Positions 1 to 43,100 of a stretch of 47,286 bases of DNA are shown piece after piece. Source of the stretch: an uncultured Eubacteriales bacterium (lineage in GTDB: Bacteria; Bacillota; Clostridia; Christensenellales; CAG-1252). The stretch covers positions 1-47,286 of the forward strand of contig CADBTQ010000006.1 of the NCBI GenBank assembly GCA_902797685.1, written 5' to 3'. The translations under genes were made by a program, and so were the position numbers. Position 1 is the stretch's first letter. Each line of letters starts with the position of its first letter. Below the pieces are notes generated by a model. The model did not search any database and was not told the DNA's origin. It saw nothing but the letters and a program-made list of their open reading frames with translations.

Positions 1-745
1 GCCCAAAGGCAGAGTGATATTCCGCCTGATGGCGGAGTGATATTCGCTCCGCGAGTTGGCTACGCTTTGCTCCGCGTGGAAGGCTCCAATATCGCCTTGT
101 AGATGGTGTAGTACACAGTACACAATCGGTTGCCCCGAGTATGCGGCGTCTCTCGAAACGCCTAAGCGATATAAATCCCGAAGGGGATTTGCGATATAAC
201 GCAGCCCCCTCGCACCGAACGAGGAGGCTGTGTTGCGATATATTCGGCAAGCCGAATGCGATATATTCCTACGGAATGTTGTGGACGGGGGGGATTGATA
301 TTGCTAACGCAAAGAGCATACATATCGCATGATACTTAGTATCACATCTCGCATATGCCTCGGCAAATGTATCGCAAAAGCACCGAAACAATGGATTGGT
401 GCCTTTACGTTAGCAAGTATTGAAAAAACAGCCGCAACCCGAGCAAGGTAAAAACCTGCGAGGATTTCACCCGCATAGAGTGCGGATTTCAACGGCTGTA
501 AAAGCCGATTTCACCCACCGCAGGTGGATCTATTCGGCTTCCACAACGTTGCCCGCATCGTCTTGGATGCGGGCAACATATCACTTGCGAGTAAGGCGAG
601 CAAATATCACTCTGCCTTTGGGCAGAATATCACACGCCTTTGGCGTATATCACTTATGAGCGTAGCACGGCAAAGCTGTTATCACTACGCGTGTGCGCTT
701 TCGCGCACGCACGCATACACACTAATTAAATATCACGTGCGAAAC
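1..745. repeat. Large intergenic hairpin array, no gene
   Basis: This gene-free stretch is a chain of short palindromes separated by short anchor words. Seen directly: TGATAT anchors in the first 60 bases; GCGATAT anchors at about 155-290 separating hairpins such as AATCCCGAAGGGGATT and TTCGGCAAGCCGAA; ATATCGC anchors around 320-375; ATTTCA anchors at about 470-515; and ATATCAC anchors from about 575 to 740 separating palindromes such as TCTGCCTTTGGGCAGA and ACGCCTTTGGCGT. The block at about 300-420 is nested inside a longer inverted repeat (GCTAACG ... CGTTAGC). Short open frames here look like by-products of the repeats, with no ribosome binding site or protein-like composition. Confidence 0.85.
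93..136 (-). repeat. 44-bp dispersed repeat, copy 1
   Basis: On the minus strand this reads GGGGCAACC, then about 35 bases ending CTACAAGGCG. It matches 18382-18425 with only two or three differences. Both copies lie inside hairpin arrays, so the unit seems to belong to the same repeat system. Confidence 0.8.
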
Positions 746-2250: not shown

Positions 2251-3503
2251 AAAAAGATCTGGTCATCATCGGCGGCGGCCCCGCGGGCTTGGCGGCTGCC
2301 ATCGGCGCCTACGACAAGGGCGTGAGAGATATACTGATACTCGAGAGGGAGCCGGTATTGGGCGGCATCCTCAACCAATGCATCCACAACGGGTTTGGTC
2401 TGCACACCTTTAAGGAGGAGCTGACCGGCCCCGAGTACGCCCACCGCTACGTCAAAGAGGTGTTGGCAAGAGGCATCGAATACAAACTATCCACCACCGT
2501 CATCGACGTCACCCCCGACAGACAGGTGTTCGCCGTGGGCGAAGAGGGGTTGTTGCATTTGCAAGCGGGCGCGATCATCTTGGCGTGCGGATGCAGAGAG
2601 CGTCCTCGCGGCGCCATCAACATCGCGGGCGCAAGGTGTGCGGGCGTGTTTTCGGCGGGTACCGCGCAAAAACTCGTCAACATGGAAGGCTATATGCCCG
2701 GCAAAGAGGTGGTCATCCTGGGTTCGGGCGACATCGGCTTGATCATGGCGCGCCGCATGACCTTCGAGGGCGCCAAAGTCAAAGCCGTGGTCGAGTTGAT
2801 GCCTTATAGCAGCGGACTCAACCGCAATATCGTGCAATGCCTCAACGATTTCGACATCCCCCTGCTGTTTTCGCACACGGTGGTGGAGATCAAGGGCAAA
2901 GACCGCGTGTCGAGCGTGGTGATCGCCCCCGTGGACGGCAAGTTGCAACCCATCATGGACCAAGCGCAGGAGATATCTTGCGACTGCTTGCTGTTGTCGG
3001 TGGGATTGCTTCCCGAAAACGAACTTGCCAAGCAAGCCAAAGTCACCCTCTCCCCCGTTACGGGCGGCGCCGAGGTGGACGACAGCATGATGACCGCCGT
3101 TGAGGGCGTGTTCGAGTGCGGCAACGTGTTGCACGTACACGATCTGGTGGACTTCGTTTCACAGGAATCCCTGCACGCGGGCGAATGCGCCGCCGCTTAT
3201 CTTGCGGGCAAACGTCCCACCGCCGACAAGGTGCGCGTGGGTACTTTCGGCGGGGTGCGCTACACCGTGCCCACCTTGCTCAACCGAGAGGACGACGGGG
3301 AGAGCCTGTCCTTCAAGATGCGCGTCAACAACGTGTATCGCAAAGTGCGCCTCAAAGTGATGGCGGACGGCGAGGAAGTGTTGGGCAAGAACAAACAGAT
3401 CGTCACCCCCGGCGAGATGGAGACGTTGACGCTTAGCCCCGAGCAAAGCGCCAAGTTGAGAGGAGCGAAAGAAGTATCGGTGGGATTGGAGGTAAGAGCA
3501 TGA
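2247..3503 (+). CDS. FAD/NAD(P)-dependent oxidoreductase, GlpA operon partner
   Basis: A 418-residue pyridine-nucleotide-disulfide-type flavoprotein. It starts with a Rossmann fold (GGGPAGLAAA at residues 9-18). It has a Cys pair in ILACGCRERPRG near residue 115 and a second nucleotide-binding fold, VVILGSGDIGLIMARR, near residue 155. The C-terminal ECGNVLHVHDLVDFV segment is the usual second FAD contact. The start overlaps the stop of the previous gene by four bases and is preceded by AAGGAGGT, so the two are translationally coupled. Family knowledge suggests it passes electrons from the GlpA-like subunit to an acceptor; the exact acceptor cannot be read from the sequence. Confidence 0.85.
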   Translation: MKKDLVIIGGGPAGLAAAIGAYDKGVRDILILEREPVLGGILNQCIHNGFGLHTFKEELTGPEYAHRYVKEVLARGIEYKLSTTVIDVTPDRQVFAVGEEGLLHLQAGAIILACGCRERPRGAINIAGARCAGVFSAGTAQKLVNMEGYMPGKEVVILGSGDIGLIMARRMTFEGAKVKAVVELMPYSSGLNRNIVQCLNDFDIPLLFSHTVVEIKGKDRVSSVVIAPVDGKLQPIMDQAQEISCDCLLLSVGLLPENELAKQAKVTLSPVTGGAEVDDSMMTAVEGVFECGNVLHVHDLVDFVSQESLHAGECAAAYLAGKRPTADKVRVGTFGGVRYTVPTLLNREDDGESLSFKMRVNNVYRKVRLKVMADGEEVLGKNKQIVTPGEMETLTLSPEQSAKLRGAKEVSVGLEVRA

Positions 3504-3862: not shown

Positions 3863-3880
3863 GCGACAGACAATGAATTG
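3846..3880 (+). repeat. Hairpin unit overlapping a stop codon, with ATGAATTG anchor
   Basis: TGTCTGTCGCT, a 5-base loop and AGCGACAGACA form a perfect 11-bp hairpin that contains the stop codon of the DUF1667 gene in its loop region. It is followed immediately by the anchor word ATGAATTG that recurs at 4872-4935 and 21076-21150. Confidence 0.75.
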
Positions 3881-3907
3881 CACCGCTCCCACAAAACGCT
3901 ACACGAT

Positions 3908-4396
3908 ATGAAAAACGTTGTTTTGCTCAACGGTCCTTCCTCCGCGGGCAAATCCACCCTTTCCAAGGCTTTGCAAGAGCGACTTGGCGGGGCAGGCTTT
4001 GACGCGGTGGTCGTCTCCATAGACGATTACATGACGACAGACCCTACCGAAACCATTTACGAGGACGATATATACGAAATCATGCCCGCCATGTGTCGGG
4101 ATATCGAAGCGTTTGCCCGACAGGGCAAAACCGTCATCGTGGACCATGCGATCACGAGCGAGCGCGTCTACGATGCGTTCGTCGGCGCGGTCAAAGGTCA
4201 AAGGGTATTGACCGTCAAAGTGACTTGCGACCTCGCCGTGTTGGAACGCCGCGAAAGGGAGCGCGGCGACAGATGTCTCGGCTCCGCTCAGGCGTCCTTG
4301 CGCTATTTGTGGCCCAAGGAAGGATACGACCTTTGCATAGACAACGGCGACACGCCCGTGGCGGACAACGTCGAAAAGATGTGGAGCGCACTATGA
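3908..4396 (+). CDS. P-loop kinase resembling chloramphenicol phosphotransferase-like family
   Basis: A 162-residue protein with a Walker A motif GPSSAGKST at residues 9-17, followed by DDYMT and, later, VIVDHAITS and RRERERGDR segments. This matches the small P-loop phosphotransferase family that includes chloramphenicol 3-O-phosphotransferase. The ATG is chosen because the Walker A strand (MKNVVLLNG) begins there; the upstream TTG falls in a repeat anchor. The ribosome binding site is weak. It overlaps the next gene by four bases. Substrate unknown; resistance should not be inferred from fold alone. Confidence 0.75.
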   Translation: MKNVVLLNGPSSAGKSTLSKALQERLGGAGFDAVVVSIDDYMTTDPTETIYEDDIYEIMPAMCRDIEAFARQGKTVIVDHAITSERVYDAFVGAVKGQRVLTVKVTCDLAVLERRERERGDRCLGSAQASLRYLWPKEGYDLCIDNGDTPVADNVEKMWSAL

Positions 4397-4872
4397 TTCG
4401 TATCTTATTCGTTTGTCACGGCAATATCTGCCGAAGTCCTATGGCGGAGTTTGTCTTTAAGGCTCTCGCCTCCCAAAAGGGTGTCGGCGACCGCTTTGCG
4501 GTCGAGTCGGCGGCGACCACCACCGACGAGATATGGGGGGACGTGGGCAATCCCGTGTACCCGCCCGCCAAAGCCGAACTCGCCCGCCACGGCATCACCC
4601 AGGGGGTGGATCGCAAGAGGGCAAGATTGCTGACCTCGTCCGATCTTGACCGCTACGACCTGTTGGTGGGCATGGATCAGGCCAACATCCGCGAGATGAC
4701 CCGCATCGTGGGCGGGGACCCCAAAGGCAAGATCGTCAAACTCCTCGACTATGCCGATGGCGGGGACGTCGCCGATCCTTGGTACACCCGCCGCTTTGAT
4801 GTGGCGTACCGCGATATCGACCGAGGGTGTAGGGCGTTACTCGATACATTGCTTATGCAAGGTATCGAGTAA
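4393..4872 (+). CDS. Low-molecular-weight protein tyrosine phosphatase
   Basis: A 159-residue protein with the signature phosphate loop C8-HGNIC-R14-S near the N-terminus and the general-acid segment DPWYT near the C-terminus, which define LMW-PTPs. The size is normal for the family. It is translationally coupled to the P-loop kinase upstream. It probably removes phosphate from protein tyrosine or arginine residues or from small phosphate esters. The stop codon's last base is also the first base of a repeat anchor. Confidence 0.92.
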   Translation: MIRILFVCHGNICRSPMAEFVFKALASQKGVGDRFAVESAATTTDEIWGDVGNPVYPPAKAELARHGITQGVDRKRARLLTSSDLDRYDLLVGMDQANIREMTRIVGGDPKGKIVKLLDYADGGDVADPWYTRRFDVAYRDIDRGCRALLDTLLMQGIE

Positions 4873-4968: not shown

Positions 4969-4997
4969 AAAAAGCGAGGCACACGCCTCGCTTTTTT
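4969..4997. terminator. Bidirectional intrinsic terminator between convergent genes
   Basis: GCGAGGC ACAC GCCTCGC is flanked by an A-run on the left and a T-run on the right, so it can terminate both the phosphatase operon and the SipL gene. Confidence 0.9.
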
Positions 4998-5011
4998 ACA
5001 TATCTTTTCGT

Positions 5012-17038: not shown

Positions 17039-18193
17039 ATGAAAAAGAGAGTTTTTAGCGTCCTGACCATCCTTGTCGTCGTCCTCGCCGTAGTCTCTTT
17101 GACAGGCTGCGACTTCGTGCAAAAAGTCGCCAAAGACTTGGGCGTGGAGGACATCATCGAAAGCCTTATCCCCGAGGGATTTCACCCCGGCGACAACAAG
17201 ACGGTGGACGTCTCGAGCGAAGTGTCGTCCGAGCCTGTCGCCTTATCGGACGGGGAATTGTCCATCCACTTTTTGGAGTTGGGCAACAAGTACACGGGGG
17301 ACTGCACCCTCATCAAGATCGGGGATACCGAGGTGCTGATCGACGCGGGCAGCCGCACCACCTCGTCCGCCACCATCGTGCCCTATATCCGCAGCTACTG
17401 CACGGACGGCAAGTTGGAGTACGTCATCGTCACTCACGCCCACCAAGACCACATCGCGGGGTTTGTGGGCAGCAAAGCCAACCCCGGCGTGTTCGACAGC
17501 TTTGAGGTGGGCACCATCATTCAGTTCGCTTTGACCAACGCCAGCAGCCAAGTTTACAAAAACTACTGCTCGGAACGGGACGAGGCGGTGGAACGCGGGG
17601 CGAAGTTGTACACCGCTTTGCAGTGCTACAACAATCTCGACGGCGCGCAACGCTCCTACACCTTGGCGGAAGGGGTGACCATGAACATCCTGTACAACTA
17701 CTATTACGAGCACACCACCGACGACGAAAACGACTATTCGGTGTGTATGCTGCTGACGCAAGGGACCAACAACTACCTGTTTACGGGCGATCTGGAAAAG
17801 AACGGGGAGCAAAAATTGGTGGAGAAGAACGACCTTCCCCACGTGCAACTCTTTAAGGGCGGTCACCACGGCTCGTACACCGCCAACACCCCCACGCTGA
17901 TGAAGGTGATCCAACCCGAGATCGTGTGCGTGTGCTGTTGCTGCGGTACGACCGAGTACACTTCCAACGACCAAAACACCTTCCCCTCGCAGGCATTTTT
18001 CGACCACGTGCTGCCCTACACCGACCAAATCTACGTCACTACCATGTGCACCGATTTCGACAAGGACGTCTACCAAAGCCTCAACGGCAATATCGTGGTG
18101 ACTTCCATGGGCACCGACCTCAAAGTGACCTGCTCCGCCTCGGTGCAATCGGTATTGGAGACCGATTGGTTTAAGGAACACCGAAAGCGGTAG
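17039..18193 (+). CDS. ComEC/Rec2-like metallo-beta-lactamase-fold lipoprotein
   Basis: A 384-residue exported lipoprotein: signal peptide with lipobox LTGC (Cys24), a Ser/Val-rich linker to about residue 70, then an MBL-fold hydrolase. Metal-binding motifs are H133-A-H135-Q-D137-H138 and the later GHHG at 275-278, as in the detached ComEC-type nuclease domains of Firmicutes. It probably hydrolyses nucleic acid or nucleotides outside the membrane; the family is poorly characterised. The ribosome binding site is weak (GGAG at long spacing), just behind the 118-residue gene. A hairpin array and terminator follow. Confidence 0.85.
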   Translation: MKKRVFSVLTILVVVLAVVSLTGCDFVQKVAKDLGVEDIIESLIPEGFHPGDNKTVDVSSEVSSEPVALSDGELSIHFLELGNKYTGDCTLIKIGDTEVLIDAGSRTTSSATIVPYIRSYCTDGKLEYVIVTHAHQDHIAGFVGSKANPGVFDSFEVGTIIQFALTNASSQVYKNYCSERDEAVERGAKLYTALQCYNNLDGAQRSYTLAEGVTMNILYNYYYEHTTDDENDYSVCMLLTQGTNNYLFTGDLEKNGEQKLVEKNDLPHVQLFKGGHHGSYTANTPTLMKVIQPEIVCVCCCCGTTEYTSNDQNTFPSQAFFDHVLPYTDQIYVTTMCTDFDKDVYQSLNGNIVVTSMGTDLKVTCSASVQSVLETDWFKEHRKR

Positions 18194-18204
18194 CGATTAA
18201 ACGA

Positions 18205-18280
18205 ATGATGTGTCGGCTCGCCGACATGATGTTTGCGCAAAGCGCAAATGATGTTATCTGCCCATGCAGATAATGATGTT
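18205..18280 (+). repeat. Hairpin array with ATGATG anchors, downstream of a plus-strand gene
   Basis: ATGATG words at 18205, 18226, 18248 and 18273 alternate with perfect palindromes: GTCGGCTCGCCGAC, TTTGCGC AAA GCGCAAA and TTATCTGC CCAT GCAGATAA. It starts 12 bases after the stop codon and leads to the terminator. Confidence 0.9.
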
Positions 18281-18309
18281 TTCTTTGCTTGGCGCAAAGA
18301 AAGTTGAGG

Positions 18310-18335
18310 AAGCCGCACCCCTTGCGGCTTTTTTG
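18310..18335 (+). terminator. Intrinsic terminator after the ATGATG array
   Basis: AAGCCGCA CCCC TTGCGGCTT followed by a T-run. Nearly the same terminator ends the plus-strand array at 27562. Confidence 0.9.
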
Positions 18336-18381
18336 ATGCTTTGGCTGCTTCAAACAGATACAAAATCGCCCCCGAAGGCTT

Positions 18382-18425
18382 GGGGCAACCTATTGTGTAC
18401 TGTGCACTACACCATCTACAAGGCG
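18382..18425 (+). repeat. 44-bp dispersed repeat, copy 2
   Basis: Matches 93-136 in reverse orientation, with two or three substitutions. A weak minus-strand terminator-like stem (GCCCC ... GGGGGC, then TTTT) overlaps its left edge. Confidence 0.8.
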
Positions 18426-18439
18426 CAAGCGGCGCCTTC

Positions 18440-18667
18440 CGATATCACCGCTTGGCGGTGCATATCATCACGATTGCAAATCGTGTATATCATCGGTTCC
18501 TCTGGACCGCATATCATCACGGCTTGCCGTGCATATCATCGCCTATGTGCGGTAGCACGCATCATGCCGCCATCACGCGGCACATCATTTGTGCATTAGG
18601 CACAACATCATGTTGCCAAAGGCAACTCATCATTTGGCAAAGCCAAACATCATCGCCCCTCGGGCGC
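18440..18667 (-). repeat. Hairpin array with ATATCA / CATCAT anchors, downstream of a minus-strand gene
   Basis: Anchors ATATCAC, ATATCATC and CATCAT (GATGATAT and ATGATG on the minus strand) alternate with palindromes such as CGCTTGGCG, ACGATTGCAAATCGT, ACGGCTTGCCGT, TGTGCATTAGGCACA, TTGCCAAAGGCAA and GCCCCTCGGGC. The last palindrome ends within five bases of the stop codon of the minus-strand gene. Confidence 0.9.
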
Positions 18668-21038: not shown

Positions 21039-21175
21039 ATTCCCCTTGAGGGGAAGGCTTTTTCATGGTGCGCCGACGGCGCATGAATTGGCGCGTTGCG
21101 CCATGAATTGACCTACGGTCATGAATTGGGGCTTGCCCCATGAATTGGAGCGGGATACCCCGCTCCATTATGGTA
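21039..21175 (+). repeat. Hairpin array with ATGAATTG anchors
   Basis: After a TTCCCC TTGA GGGGAA hairpin with a T-run, ATGAATTG words recur with GTGCGCCGACGGCGC, GCGCGTTGCGC, ACCTACGGT, GGGGCTTGCCCC and GGAGCGGGATACCCCGCTCC between them. It is the same anchor as at 4872. Unlike most arrays it lies beyond the terminator of the upstream gene. Confidence 0.88.
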
Positions 21176-26891: not shown

Positions 26892-27425
26892 ATGCCCAAA
26901 TACAAAAAGTGCCCTCGTTGCGAGTTGAATTACATTTTGGAGACCGAAGACTACTGTCCGGTGTGCAAGGACGAACTCAAAGGTATCGTCACCAACGACT
27001 TGGAACTCGAGGAAGAATATACCAAGATATGCCCCCGTTGCGGCGTGAATTTGGTGTCGGATGACGCCGAATATTGCGAGACTTGCCGCGCCGAGATGGC
27101 GGAGATCGCCTCTATCCACGACGCGGAAGACGCGGTATGGGGTCGCGGAGACGGCGACACCGTATCGCTGGACGAATTGGGCGAGAGCGAGATGGACGAG
27201 GATATCGCCGCCGAGATCGAGGACGCGGACGAAGACAACGAGCCCTTGGTGCTGGACGAAGCCATGCTTGCCGAGCTGCAAAGCGAGCGCGAAGCGGACG
27301 AGGCGGAAGAGGAAGCCGACCTTGCCGCCGACACCAAAGACGTTGATGACGACGACTTGGACTTCAACTATGACTCGGACGATTACGACGAGGAAGAAGA
27401 GGACGAAGAAGAGGAAGACCTGTAG
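26892..27425 (+). CDS. Double zinc-ribbon protein with acidic tail
   Basis: A 177-residue protein. Two zinc ribbons occupy the N-terminus: C7/C10 with C22/C25, and C47/C50 with C62/C65. From about residue 75 it is strongly acidic, ending in near-continuous Asp/Glu (DDYDEEEEDEEEEDL). The ATG beginning MPKYKKCPRC has AAAGGAGGGG upstream. The Fur-like operator suggests control by metal or oxidative state. It could buffer zinc or bind a basic partner or RNA polymerase; nothing specific is recognisable. Confidence 0.85.
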   Translation: MPKYKKCPRCELNYILETEDYCPVCKDELKGIVTNDLELEEEYTKICPRCGVNLVSDDAEYCETCRAEMAEIASIHDAEDAVWGRGDGDTVSLDELGESEMDEDIAAEIEDADEDNEPLVLDEAMLAELQSEREADEAEEEADLAADTKDVDDDDLDFNYDSDDYDEEEEDEEEEDL

Positions 27426-27555
27426 CGAAAGCACCGTGCTACGCTTCACAGTGATATACGGCTTTGCCGTGTGATATTCTGCCCAAAGGCAGAGTGATAT
27501 TGATTCACTACGCTCATAAGTGATATGTTGCCCGCATCCTTCGATGCGGGCAACG
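27426..27555 (+). repeat. Hairpin array with GTGATAT anchors, plus orientation
   Basis: GTGATAT words separate ACGGCTTTGCCGT, TCTGCCCAAAGGCAGA, TTGATTCACTACGCTCATAA and a longer GTTGCCCGCATC ... GATGCGGGCAAC hairpin. The first stem begins on the stop codon of the zinc-ribbon gene (GTAGC ... GCTAC). TCTGCC...GGCAGA with GTGATAT flanks also occurs in the array at 1-745. Confidence 0.9.
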
Positions 27556-27561
27556 TTATGG

Positions 27562-27586
27562 AAGCCGCACGACGTGCGGCTTTTTT
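27562..27586 (+). terminator. Intrinsic terminator (plus)
   Basis: AAGCCGCAC GAC GTGCGGCTT followed by T-run; close copy of the terminator at 18310. Confidence 0.92.
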
Positions 27587-27602
27587 GACGTTTTTTCTCA
27601 AA

Positions 27603-27626
27603 TAAAAAGCCCCGAGACCTCGGGGC
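27603..27626 (-). terminator. Intrinsic terminator of radC (minus)
   Basis: Minus strand GCCCCGAG GT CTCGGGGC followed by a T-run, 17 bases from the plus-strand terminator. Confidence 0.88.
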
Positions 27627-27627
27627 A

Positions 27628-27775
27628 TCCGATATCACGGCTTGCCGTGCCTATCACCGCCCATGTGCGATAGCACGCATCATGCCGTATTCAGACGGCG
27701 CATCATTTGTGCCAAAGGCACAACATCATTTGCGCTTTGCGCAAACATCATGTTGCCATCGGCAACACATACTCC
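27628..27775 (-). repeat. Hairpin array with ATATCAC / CATCAT anchors, minus orientation
   Basis: Palindromes CGGCTTGCCG, CGCCCATGTGCG, CCGTATTCAGACGG, TGTGCCAAAGGCACA, TTTGCGCTTTGCGCAAA and TTGCCATCGGCAA are separated by ATATCAC and CATCAT. Several words and their order match the array at 18440-18667. Confidence 0.9.
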
Positions 27776-27792
27776 GCCCCGCGGCGACGCGA

Positions 27793-31738: not shown

Positions 31739-32017
31739 ATGGAAGAACAAACTTCGGGATATATCGAAATACCCATCGAGGTCATCGCCAAGTTTGGCGA
31801 AAACGGGGATTTGAGACCGCTCAAGATGATGTACAACGACGAGATCTACGTCATCGAGAGGGTCTTATCTTGGCGTCGAGAGCGCTCCCGCGCGTACGCT
31901 CTGCCCGCCAACGTCTACTCATGCGTGATCTGCGGGCAAAAGCGGGACTTGCTGTTTTACGATCAAGAAGGGCGGTGGTGCATCAAAAAGTACGTGCCCT
32001 ACCAAGCGATCGACTAG
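31739..32017 (+). CDS. Conserved clostridial small protein (92 residues)
   Basis: ATG behind TTGGAGGCG. The product has an IEVIAKFGENGDLRPLKMMY strand-turn, then VIERVLSWRRERS and a C-terminal YSCVICGQKRDLLFYDQEGRW segment. This pattern (a request for a basic RRAxS stretch followed by a beta-hairpin and W) is familiar from uncharacterised small Clostridia proteins. No membrane segment. Strong promoter with a possible operator; single-gene unit followed by a hairpin array. Confidence 0.75.
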   Translation: MEEQTSGYIEIPIEVIAKFGENGDLRPLKMMYNDEIYVIERVLSWRRERSRAYALPANVYSCVICGQKRDLLFYDQEGRWCIKKYVPYQAID

Positions 32018-32128
32018 TGGCGGGACGCCCAAGGGGCGACGAGATAGGCTTTGCCTATGATATACCGCACTGCGGTATGATATATTCGAGCGGGGCTCGA
32101 ATAGGATATATCCCGTTGGGATATTATG
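32018..32128 (+). repeat. Hairpin array with GATATA anchors, plus orientation
   Basis: CGCCCAAGGGGCG, AGGCTTTGCCT, CCGCACTGCGG, TTCGAGCGGGGCTCGAA and TCCCGTTGGGA alternate with GATATA/TGATATA words, starting a few bases after the stop codon. Confidence 0.9.
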
Positions 32129-32183: not shown

Positions 32184-32292
32184 ATTATCCGCAATACGAC
32201 CACAGGTCGTATATCATTGACCGAAGGTCCTTATCCTATCCCATAGGGATATATCATAGCCAACGGCTATCTCATTTTTTGGTAGCCTTGGG
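32184..32292 (-). repeat. Hairpin array with TATATCA anchors, minus orientation
   Basis: ACGACCACAGGTCGT, TGACCGAAGGTC, ATCCTATCCCATAGGGAT, GCCAACGGC and TAGCCTTGGGCTA are separated by TATATCA-like words. The last palindrome touches the stop codon of the TM2 gene. This is the mirror image of the block on the other side of the terminator. Confidence 0.9.
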
Positions 32293-35053: not shown

Positions 35054-35267
35054 TTAATCTCCCATGGATTTCAATAAGTCGTCTAACATAGGAAAAGCCT
35101 GTTCCATTCCGTTGACGAAAGTGCCAATTGAAGCCGCATACGCATTATACGTCAACATTTTTTCAAATGTTGTGAATTTAGGCGAGGAGCCCCCCCCCAA
35201 CAACCCCTGCCACTTGGGCAAGGTATTCGTCGCTGTATGGGGGTATGGTATAAGTGCGTGTGTTCAT
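35054..35267 (-). pseudogene. Small PPYSDEY protein, copy a, frameshifted at a G9 tract
   Basis: On the minus strand the frame starts MNTRTYTIPPYSDEYLAQVA and runs into nine consecutive G residues, after which it stops within four codons. Removing one G gives an uninterrupted frame of 70 residues ending LDDLLKSMGD, one base before TM-a. The start is identical in its first 15 residues to copy c (37339). So the gene is either switched off by homopolymer slippage, decayed, or the G count is a sequencing error. No strong ribosome binding site is seen. Confidence 0.75.
35190..35198. repeat. Nine-base C/G homopolymer within a coding region
   Basis: A run of nine C on the plus strand; eight would restore the reading frame of the small protein. 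Confidence 0.9.
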
Positions 35268-35340
35268 AATGATATACAAGATGGGGACTAATGGGCTATA
35301 TGCAACCCCTTTCTATGGTTGATACCAATAGATTAAGCAA

Positions 35341-36980: not shown

Positions 36981-37339
36981 TTAGTATTGCAAATAGCTAA
37001 GACCAAAAGTCAAAGAAAATGCGGTAGCGTTACCCGATAACAAACTCTTAACCAACAAATCTATCAGGTTGATGTGTTGCATTTTTTGTAATTCGACAAG
37101 CAATTTCATATGTGCTGCGTGAACTCTATTTTCTGCAAGTGCAACATTTGCATCCAACCTCTTGCCGCGCCATGCACAGCAATATCTTCTCTCCGAAAAG
37201 CGCGTATGAAACCTTCTGTTGGATGTTTGAGACAACGAGCTTCTATTGCTTTTGCATTTCTCGCCCCAGCACCAATCCTTGCCGCTTGGGCAAAGTATTC
37301 GTCGCTGTATGGGGGTATGGTATAAGTGCGTGTGTTCAT
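36981..37339 (-). pseudogene. Small PPYSDEY protein, copy c, with a one-base deletion
   Basis: Begins MNTRTYTIPPYSDEYFAQAA with AGGATAG upstream and reads correctly to about residue 61. Around 37155 the frame shifts: the original frame ends at 37106, while the rest of the homology (DANVALAENRVHAAHMK ... NLIDLLVKSLLSGNATAFSL) continues in another frame to 36981. Total length is 359 bases against 360 in intact copy b, so a single deleted base explains it. Either a decayed gene or a sequence error. Confidence 0.75.
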
Positions 37340-37437
37340 ACTATCCTACTCTATTGTACCCAATCGGTCGTGCGCCGTCAATGGCGTTTCCCTGCAAGAA
37401 TTGCGGGATTTTTGCTATCCGCCTAAAGAGCGCCTAT
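37340..37437. repeat. Cassette module, copy B (leader/promoter plus hairpin)
   Basis: The left 44 bases (leader, promoter) are nearly identical to 38052-38095 and the right 54 bases to 34281-34333. Confidence 0.88.
37353..37381 (-). promoter_or_regulatory. Promoter of the paired-paralogue operon
   Basis: Minus strand: TTGACG, 17 bp, TACAAT, then AGGATAGT before the ATG of copy c. Confidence 0.7.
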
Positions 37438-40049: not shown

Positions 40050-40190
40050 CCGCCTTTTTGGGCGGCATATCGCACCGCATAGCGGTATCTCGCAAAGTTT
40101 CACCTTACCCCGCATACCCCTTTGGGGCATATATCGCATTGCATAGCAATATATCGCACCGCGCAGCGGTATATCGCGCCGCAGGCGGTT
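40050..40190 (-). repeat. Hairpin array with ATATCGC anchors, minus orientation
   Basis: GCCTTTTTGGGC, ACCGCATAGCGGT, CCCCTTTGGGG, ATTGCATAGCAAT, ACCGCGCAGCGGT and GCCGCAGGC alternate with ATATCGC words (GCGATAT on the minus strand, as at 155-290). The last hairpin lies within three bases of the stop codon of the giant lipoprotein. Confidence 0.9.
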
Positions 40191-43100
40191 TTACTCGTCA
40201 AGCGGCAGTATCGTCAATTCAAAGCTCGCGTCCGTTTGATAATTGGCGTCCAAACTGACCAATTTGACCGTGTAACTACCCACAGCGGTCGGTTCCTCAT
40301 CCAAGAGGGTTTCCCCGTCGTAATAGGTCAATTCCACGTCCACGCCCGAGGCGGTCGTCGCGACCAAATCCAAGGGATAGCCCGACCACAGCCTCTCCAA
40401 GCCGCCCCACACGTTGAGCACGCGATTGCCCTCGGTCACGGTGATATCCGCCGCTTGGACGACCGCTTTGGCGACCTCGAAGTCGATGGTCACCGCTCCG
40501 CCGTATTGGGGGTTGGAGACGGTGATCGTCAAGGTGTAGTCCCCCGCGATCAATTCGTCCTCAGCCGCAAGAGTCTCTCCGCCGCGGGACAACACGGTCA
40601 GGATCTCGTCCTGCTCGAATACCACGGTGCTTTGGGGCTTGACGGGATATTCGGCAAGGAAGGCGGTCACGTCGTACCCCTTGACGTAGGTGCGCCCGAA
40701 ATCCACCGCCAACTTGCCCAAGTTGAACATATCGTGATCGAGCGCGATCTTGCGGTCCGCGCCGGTAGACACCGCTTGCAAGGTCGCCAAATGCGCGCCG
40801 AACAAGCTGTTGCGGTTGACCAAGGTGAGGTACATCACGTCGTCCTCTCCTCTCGTCCAACCAAACGCCAACCCTTCCGCCAAATCGCGGCTTGCCACGA
40901 TGGTGCGGCTGGTACCGCCCGAAGCGCCCACGGTCATGGTCAACTTATTTAGCCTTAGGGTCAACTGTTCCCAAGCGGCGGCGCGCAAAGCCTCTTGCCC
41001 GTCGTCCGCGGGAGCGAACGACGCAAACGGAGTCGCACGATTTGCGTCGTACAGCACCCCGTCGGGGAGATACGCTTTGATGGTCTCGTCGTCGGTCGTG
41101 ATCGACAAGATGACCGAGCCTTCCGCGTACACGTTGTAGCCGCTAAGCGTTTGATAGCCGCCCGCGTCGTTGCCCACCGCCACCGAGACGTTTTGTCCGA
41201 GCACCCCGCCGTCGAACGAGGCGACGTAGTCGGTCACGTCGTAGCGGAGCAACATACGGTATTTGAGATCGTCTCCGGCAAACTTGACGAGCACGTTGCG
41301 CAAAGCGTACGTCCTACCCTCGATCACTTGCACGTTTTGTCCGTAAGGCGTGGTCGAATAGACGTCCACGGTCAGCACGCCGCGCAAGGGTGCACCGTCT
41401 AAGCCGTACACCGACTCGATGGTGCGAGCAAGCACGTTGACGGTCACGGGGACGCGCACGTCGATACCGATAGCGGTATGCAGCAGCGCGTACACGGTGT
41501 AGGTGCCGCCGCGGTAGGGCACTAAGCCCTCGATCCCTTTGAGGTCCCAACCGTCGATCGCCACGTTGACGCTGTCCTGCCCTTTGAGGGTAAAGATCAT
41601 GCGTTGGGGATAGCTATTGGCGGACAGAGGATCGGCGACGTAAGGATCCACCGTAATGGAAGTGCCGTCCACCTTCATGCTCTCCAAACTCTGCCCCGAA
41701 TGGGACAGCGAGGAGTTGGCGTAAGGCACGGCGGTCAAGCGGATCTCGGTCATGGTGGACGCCGCGATCACCAAGGGGATCACGCATTCCACGTCGTGGA
41801 CTTTGGCGATGAGGTTGACGCTGCCCGCCACCTCTTGCACGCCTTTGCCGCCTTCCACCTGCTCGCGGAAGTATTGCAGCACGACGGACAAGTCTTGCCA
41901 CGACGTGATGGCAAACCAACCGCTGTCCACGTCGCTGCCGCCCGCGTACTCGAAGTACAAGTCGCCCAAGCAGCCCGCCTCGAAGTCGTCGCGGTCGCAC
42001 AAGAGGTCGTGAATGGTCTTGAGGTCGGTGGGATCGTTGCGAACGAACGCCCCCTCAAGATAGTCGAACAAGGAAATGGACAAGGTCGTGGTGCCCACCA
42101 CTCTTGCGTCTCCGTTCACCACTTGGGTGACGATGGTGCGATCGTAGCGTTGACGACCTTGGTGCAACGTCTCGTCGTAGGGGATATAGTCGTTGTTGTA
42201 CCACACGTATTGTCCCTCGAGCGACTCGGTATAGGTGTACTCGACCGAGGTGTACACGGCGGTAGGACGAGCGGAAGCGATCCACAGACCCACCGCTTCG
42301 GGCAGGGCTTGCCCGTCGGGCAAAGTCAACGACAGGGTGTTGCGGAAGCCTTGTTCCACCGTGACTTCGTCCAACTGCTCGATGGGCCACACCACCTTGA
42401 CGACGGTGCTCGTGCCGTCTAAGAAGGTCACGCGCACTTGGTCGGGATAGCACTCCAAGCAATGGAAATTGACCTTGTTGGGGTCGAGGATCAAACGCTT
42501 GATATCCTGATCGGCGGCGGACACCTTGCGGTAAGCCACCTCGTAGATCTCCTCCGAGAGGTTGAAGCGGCGCAACCCTTGATGATCGGGATTTTGCGCG
42601 TCGTAAGGTACGTAACGGTTGCCCTCGACGACGTAAGCGCCCTCATCGCTCGCGAGATAGAGGGGCGCCTCGAGCACCACGTCCCCTTGCAGGGGCTCGA
42701 ATTGCCACGACGCCACCACTTTTTGGTCAAATTGCATATTGACGGTCACCGTCAGCCCAAAGAAGGACGCGGTATCCGTAAAGGTGCGGGTATCGTACCA
42801 CAACGCCTTGTCGTCCCACCCTTGGGGGGCGAAAGTCACTTCCTTTTGGGCGTACCCCGTGGCGGTCGTCAACCGAACGGCGGCGGGATAGTCGTAAGAG
42901 TAAGCGCTAAGATGTTCCAAACTAAACTCGTACTCGTCCTGTCGGTCGAGGTCCACGTAAGTGGGCAACGTGCCCAATACCGTGCCTCGTTTGCCGACGA
43001 GCGACAGCGAGGTGGCGTCAAGGGGCGCTACCGAATAGCGCAAGCCTTCCACTTGTTGCAAGCCGCCCACTTCGTTGCCGAACGTGATGCCGAAGGTGCC

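Follow-up and report, generated by a model that had tools for sequence, protein, structure and literature searches.

The window, that is, the whole stretch of 47,286 nucleotides analysed here, comes from an uncultured bacterium of gut type and carries arrays of short hairpins in the gaps between its genes (Table 1). At the locus reported first, the block reads TAG-CGAAAGCACCGTGCTACGCTTCACA-GTGATAT-[ACGGCTTTGCCGT]-GTGATAT-[TCTGCCCAAAGGCAGA]-GTGATAT-... into a terminator-like hairpin, and it is faced from the other strand by the arm of a RadC-domain gene, the outermost hairpin of which, GATCAAACGGTTTTGATC, includes the stop codon of that gene. Within an arm the anchor is constant and the palindromes are variable, and the anchor words are related to one another (GTGATAT, ATGATAT, GCGATAT, GTGAAAT, GTGATGT, ATGATGT, ATGAATT and GTTATAT). 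The initial annotation had described such blocks after several stop codons, and those after 4872, 18193, 27425 and 32017 (plus strand) and after 18668, 27793, 32293 and 40191 (minus strand) are indeed arrays; the one placed after 3862 is a single hairpin embracing the stop codon (TGTCGCTCGGTAAGCGACA) together with one anchor. Two arrays had been overlooked, the ATGAATTG array at 21053-21167 and, at 1-712, a compound in which three anchor families are nested.

Table 1. Hairpin arrays of the window, with scores of matches to the Gut-1 model (Rfam RF01706; curated cut-off 50 bits)
Position	Strand	Feature	Remarks
1..712	.	Compound element: GTGATAT arm (+), GCGATAT arms, GTGAAAT arm (as ATTTCAC, -), outer GTGATAT arm (-)	Direct reading and alignment with four other copies; cut by contig start; Gut-1 at 12-97 (+), 27.6 bits, 459-536 (-), 44.2 bits, and 573-655 (-), 39.8 bits
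4873..4950	+	ATGAATTG array directly 3' of stop at 4872	Terminator-like hairpin follows, about 4970-4998
18194..18330	+	ATGATG(T) array, four variable hairpins, then terminator-like hairpin	After stop at 18193
18361..18667	-	Facing arms with ATGATAT and ATGATG words, for gene ending 18668	Contains dispersed core 18361-18426, 11 copies in genome
21053..21167	+	ATGAATTG array, five hairpins	Beyond a terminator-like hairpin
27426..27590	+	GTGATAT array (first-reported locus), then terminator-like hairpin	Stop at 27423-27425; Gut-1 at 27423-27505, 40.8 bits, E=1e-4, under cut-off
27605..27792	-	Facing arm with ATGATG and ATGATAT-like words, for RadC-domain gene ending 27793	
32018..32124	+	ATGATAT array after stop at 32017	Gut-1 at 32015-32088, 31.3 bits; terminator-like inverted repeat between this arm and the next
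32190..32292	-	Facing ATGATAT array for gene ending 32293	Gut-1 at 32206-32277, 32.1 bits
40030..40190	-	GCGATAT array for large gene ending 40191	Gut-1 at 40126-40197, 30.8 bits

A gene with a chloramphenicol phosphotransferase-like domain (PF07931), at 3878-4396, adjoins a ATGAATTG hairpin. Elsewhere in the window, a near-identical stretch (GGGCAAGGTATTCGTCGCTGTATGGGGGTATGGTATAAGTGCGTGTGTTCAT and a variant of it) stands before small minus-strand genes at 35170-35270 and 37285-37345.

The reality of the grammar is clear from the controls. If a chain is defined as at least three perfect hairpins (stem of at least 5, loop of 3-8, gap of 2-14), the window contains 14 chains with 53 units, versus 0-2 chains with 0-7 units in 20 dinucleotide shuffles, and chance chains that lack a common anchor make up a few of the 14. 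A 447 kb sample of this genome yielded 51 anchored arms with at least three units, against a mean of 0 in shuffles. Genome-wide, TGATAT-N10-24-TGATAT occurs 146 times (78 forward and 68 reverse) against 2 (1 + 1) for the reversed-pattern control, and it is also enriched in many relatives. The shuffles and the reversed-pattern controls rule out chance or low complexity as the source of the arrays.

The family is not wholly new, because Rfam already contains it. At the default Rfam threshold nothing in the window matches, and at a permissive threshold the arrays match RF01706 (Gut-1 RNA), whose consensus, CAaUGAAAU[stem]GUGAAAU[stem]GUGAAAu[stem]UGAAAUuG, leaves the stems unconserved and follows the grammar of our arrays; three hairpins with variable stems and UGAAAU-like linkers are found in the model alignment, and covariation in a related element. 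The place C61:36984-37064 scores 60.4 bits, further places over the curated cut-off lie at C52, C21, C7, C27 and C77, and this genome has 47 matches at E<=0.001. The window copies score under the cut-off (the best, 44.2 bits) and are not members by it; they are tied to the copies over the cut-off by the model and by homology. Among 61 genomes, 21 have a match, 13 of them with one over the cut-off, and none of 14 named control genomes has a match over it. Matches were also obtained in Oscillospiraceae, in Ruminococcus, on other MAG contigs, in G414 (from another class of the phylum) and on IMG/VR contigs, eight of them over the cut-off.

In the list of Weinberg et al. (2010; PMC2864571), Gut-1 comes from human gut only and is probably noncoding RNA without a cis-regulatory role. 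Its Rfam record has listed it since 2010 as a candidate noncoding RNA, typed "Gene; sRNA" and of unknown function, and our literature search found the accession RF01706 named in no other paper. What the arrays share with Gut-1 is hairpins with unconserved stems alternating with constant GUGAAAU words, with several copies of this genome over the cut-off. What is new is that Gut-1 forms part of something longer, namely dispersed elements that belong to several anchor families: Rfam describes three units as a single small RNA gene from human gut, whereas the elements found here are longer and two-armed, use several anchor words, are scattered behind genes and occur in ruminant-gut contigs too. 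The Rfam type and the listing by Weinberg et al. would make of each array a trans-acting small RNA gene. We consider this very improbable: one genome has 47 matches, mostly flush with gene ends and in facing pairs, the runs exceed the length of the model, and units are exchanged between copies. The placement of the arrays in particular argues against a separate RNA gene.

Elements measure about 150-300 bp, compounds up to about 700 bp, and many are two-armed, one arm being followed, often after a terminator-like core, by a second on the opposite strand that in most cases uses the same word. The compound with three word families recurs in related form at C7, C9, C41 and C71. Since the contig starts of both the window and C9 lie inside this repeated compound, assembly breaks fall in arrays, and the number of arrays is likely to be underestimated. 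Another element, of about 205 bp, whose left arms have the word ATATCAT and whose right arms have ATGATAT, matches 10 times in this genome, up to 13 times in genomes of a sister genus (g3), all sampled genomes of which have it, and 7 times in a genome from another family of the order (G031). Its homologous copies adjoin unrelated genes, and more generally the genes that flank arrays are functionally unrelated to one another. One hairpin, CAAGGGACAAGCCCTTG, is identical across two genera. The core GGAAGSCGAATAGA, common to L328 and in part to L265 and L220, was considered as a conserved core or general hallmark and was ruled out, since the longer exact pattern occurs in none of 398 genomes of the phylum and in one viral contig. 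We also note two near-identical ATGATAT two-armed elements in tandem at L342 3173-3600 (genome G016), with one stem difference on a single side, and a CATTCTGAGC...GAGTCGAAGAATCTCGCG stretch just past the array at L047 (about 3185-3245), which resembles another dispersed repeat.

Comparison of copies shows how they differ. Among five copies of the compound, a whole hairpin between anchors is replaced by another (TTTTGCCAAGGCAAAA for TCTGCCCAAAGGCAGA), the window copy has cleanly lost CCATGCTCTGCATGG together with its anchor, and in the L043 copy one arm is substituted by an arm of another word family. Across 12 copies of the element of about 205 bp, the anchors hardly vary and the stems turn over on both sides: 95.2% of the cells are paired, and 46 cells are double changes, versus 15.5±2.8 after shuffling; none of 500 shuffles reached as high, a result that is not a probability, because cells count sequences and not events and the rows are related. 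In the same element, the long-range pairing of the core with the right end is 93% paired, but its covariation is weak, a level reached in 16-17 of 500 shuffles. One might suppose that left anchors pair with right ones and that this alone keeps them constant; the assumption is not needed, since single-arm arrays also keep constant anchors.

On balance, we think it probable that the arrays are mosaic, mobile hairpin elements of the 3' ends of transcription units, similar to REP/BIME, of which Gut-1 would be a three-unit piece. Such an element consists of one or two hairpin arms built on a constant anchor of 6-8 nt, and facing arms are often separated by a terminator-like core. Its copies are scattered over the genome and the family, and they persist mainly in gaps after genes and above all in convergent ones. 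The unit swaps suggest exchange or strand switching at the anchors, by which whole hairpins would be swapped, added or dropped; with an identical word on either side of each unit, such events would leave the anchors constant and the palindromes variable. Within a hairpin, both sides of the stem also change, one base pair at a time, and the Watson-Crick symmetry stays near-perfect, as would suit a hairpin kept as DNA, through a cruciform, a single-stranded hairpin or palindrome-correcting replication.

The initial annotation had also suggested a hairpin-forming element that spreads by adding units. Dispersal and the gain and loss of whole units agree with this, and movement is what the sequence comparison suggests. 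The comparison of orthologous intergenic regions that it proposed was run around radC and a permease gene, where the relatives are too distant or paralogous, and neither an empty site nor an insertion was observed directly. As for a transposase, no Y1 enzyme (PF01797) was matched in this genome, of 98% completeness; 5 of 20 relatives have one.

The elements are not placed at random with respect to genes. In the 447 kb sample, which was partly picked around arrays and is the basis of all the placement statistics, 14 of 24 array loci lie between convergent genes, compared with 11 of 104 other gaps (p=2e-6), and arms of at least three units are sense rather than antisense relative to the upstream gene by 31 to 10 (p=0.0015). 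This supports a placement of the arrays at gene ends, mostly in the direction of the gene. The narrower claim that most start 0-25 bases after the stop codon is right as to their closeness to stops and their mostly sense orientation; the actual starts of sense arms range mostly from -26 to +60 nt, and antisense arms exist. In L010, L039, L047 and L050 the first anchor supplies, with its TGA, the stop codon that was called. The arrays would presumably be present in the 3' ends of mRNAs.

The preference for convergent gaps and for the sense direction also fits the main rival of a mobile origin, with which it could coexist: a functional 3'-end RNA, in which strings of hairpins would protect mRNA ends, aid termination or make ribosomes stall on reaching the stop codon. 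Terminator-like hairpins follow several arrays, as such a role might lead one to expect, and REPs of E. coli at most 15 nt from stop codons are known to stall ribosomes (PMC12306157). We nevertheless think this explanation rather unlikely. Some arms are antisense, some arrays lie beyond a terminator-like hairpin (at 21069 in the window, L012 16962 and L017 8197, in a terminator scan that covered short loops only and left many loci without a clear call), and the number and sequence of the units vary widely between copies. The pairing itself is a further objection to a structure kept specifically as RNA; 3'-end RNA structures were one of the two readings offered in the initial annotation. Of 917 stem pairs read on the anchor strand, 877 are Watson-Crick, 6 G-U, 11 A-C and 23 other, while in tRNAs of the same genome G-U pairs amount to 12.5% (42/337; p=4e-19). 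Terminator-like hairpins have 12 G-U and 9 A-C pairs; since terminators act as RNA and yet show little excess of G-U, this strand test is a weak one. With G-U pairs nearly absent and not in excess over A-C, the pairing looks as if it were maintained at the level of DNA, and not specifically of RNA.

Stems that are symmetric between strands would also suit DNA sites for an anchor-binding protein, the hairpins serving to space or expose the word, for example in chromosome folding or in the release of supercoils. Positive supercoils meet in convergent gaps, where the arrays concentrate, and the same words occur in distant lineages with unrelated stems. Against this, one genome uses several different words, the elements look parasitic and nested, and no such protein was identified; we hold this explanation to be quite improbable.

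The hairpins nearest the stop codon deserve separate mention. Of 37 genes with arrays, 16 have a hairpin with a stem of at least 6 that starts between -20 and +10 relative to the stop codon, versus 28 of 312 others; once five ordinary anchored units are removed, 11 of the 37 remain (p=0.0009 against the 28 of 312). These outermost hairpins are specific to their locus and often contain the stop codon or the last codons (GCGCAATAAGGCTTGCGC, TGCAGTAACGAGAACGTTACTGCA, TGATTTTTGTTCCGTCGGAACAAAAATCA). Since such a locus-specific hairpin stands between the stop codon and the first anchor and abuts the latter, one may imagine that palindromes are self-made, the array growing by backward copying of the adjacent host DNA, with each new hairpin joined to a new anchor. 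This seems to us unlikely; if true, repeats would here arise by a new mechanism.

Apart from Gut-1, our literature search on such arrays returned only relatives of the REP type. The arrays are, like REP/BIME, clustered short extragenic palindromes in high copy number, with a conserved tag next to a possibly variable stem and often near gene ends. REP families retain their stem sequence and a tag, either GTAG or CGTC; their stems often contain G-T pairs, and GTAG REPs are associated with RAYT transposases (PMC3733652). Here, by contrast, a RYGAWDT-like tag is combined with stems that vary between units, G-U pairs are rare and the genome has no Y1 transposase match. Membership of the REP/RAYT system is ruled out by the lack of a terminal GTAG/CGTC tag (the anchors being TGATAT, CGATAT, TGAAAT, TGAATT and TGATGT) and of PF01797. 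Inverted repeats of E. coli likewise concentrate just past stop codons and gene ends, most long ones being single intrinsic terminators (PMC6060812), whereas ours are anchored strings of hairpins without T runs; array units precede anchors, and terminator-like hairpins adjoin some arrays. The alternation of a constant word with a variable segment recalls CRISPR, but the resemblance ends there, the variable parts being palindromes, the word having 6-8 nt, and the arrays being small, at gene ends and in the tens. LIMP palindromes of Lobosphaera mitochondria are intergenic and repeated, show complementary stem changes and have been discussed as DNA cruciforms or RNA processing sites (PMC4524435); they belong to an organelle and combine a constant loop with a repeated stem unit, the reverse of the constant linker and variable stem seen here.

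The status of Gut-1 as an RNA in Rfam was supported by two-sided changes in its stems. The present genome suggests that these double changes are those of a dispersed element, one in which hairpins are exchanged and kept palindromic as DNA, so that covariation alone may mislead RNA discovery. It also ties Gut-1 to the 3' ends of genes in gut Clostridia.

Farther afield, a two-anchor scan of the genome collection gave mostly chance matches and few real arrays, and the GTGATAT-array pattern is absent from nearly all of 398 sampled genomes; G414 has GTGATAT arrays of identical grammar (L210, L213, L216). In other lineages, Gut-1-like arrays follow 5S rRNA or tRNA genes (L122 182-509, L176 1326-1727 and L216 1-262), so that the association may be with the 3' ends of transcripts generally and not with stop codons. 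The array and 5S rRNA gene of L122 lie on a contig binned as Akkermansia, possibly through misbinning or transfer.
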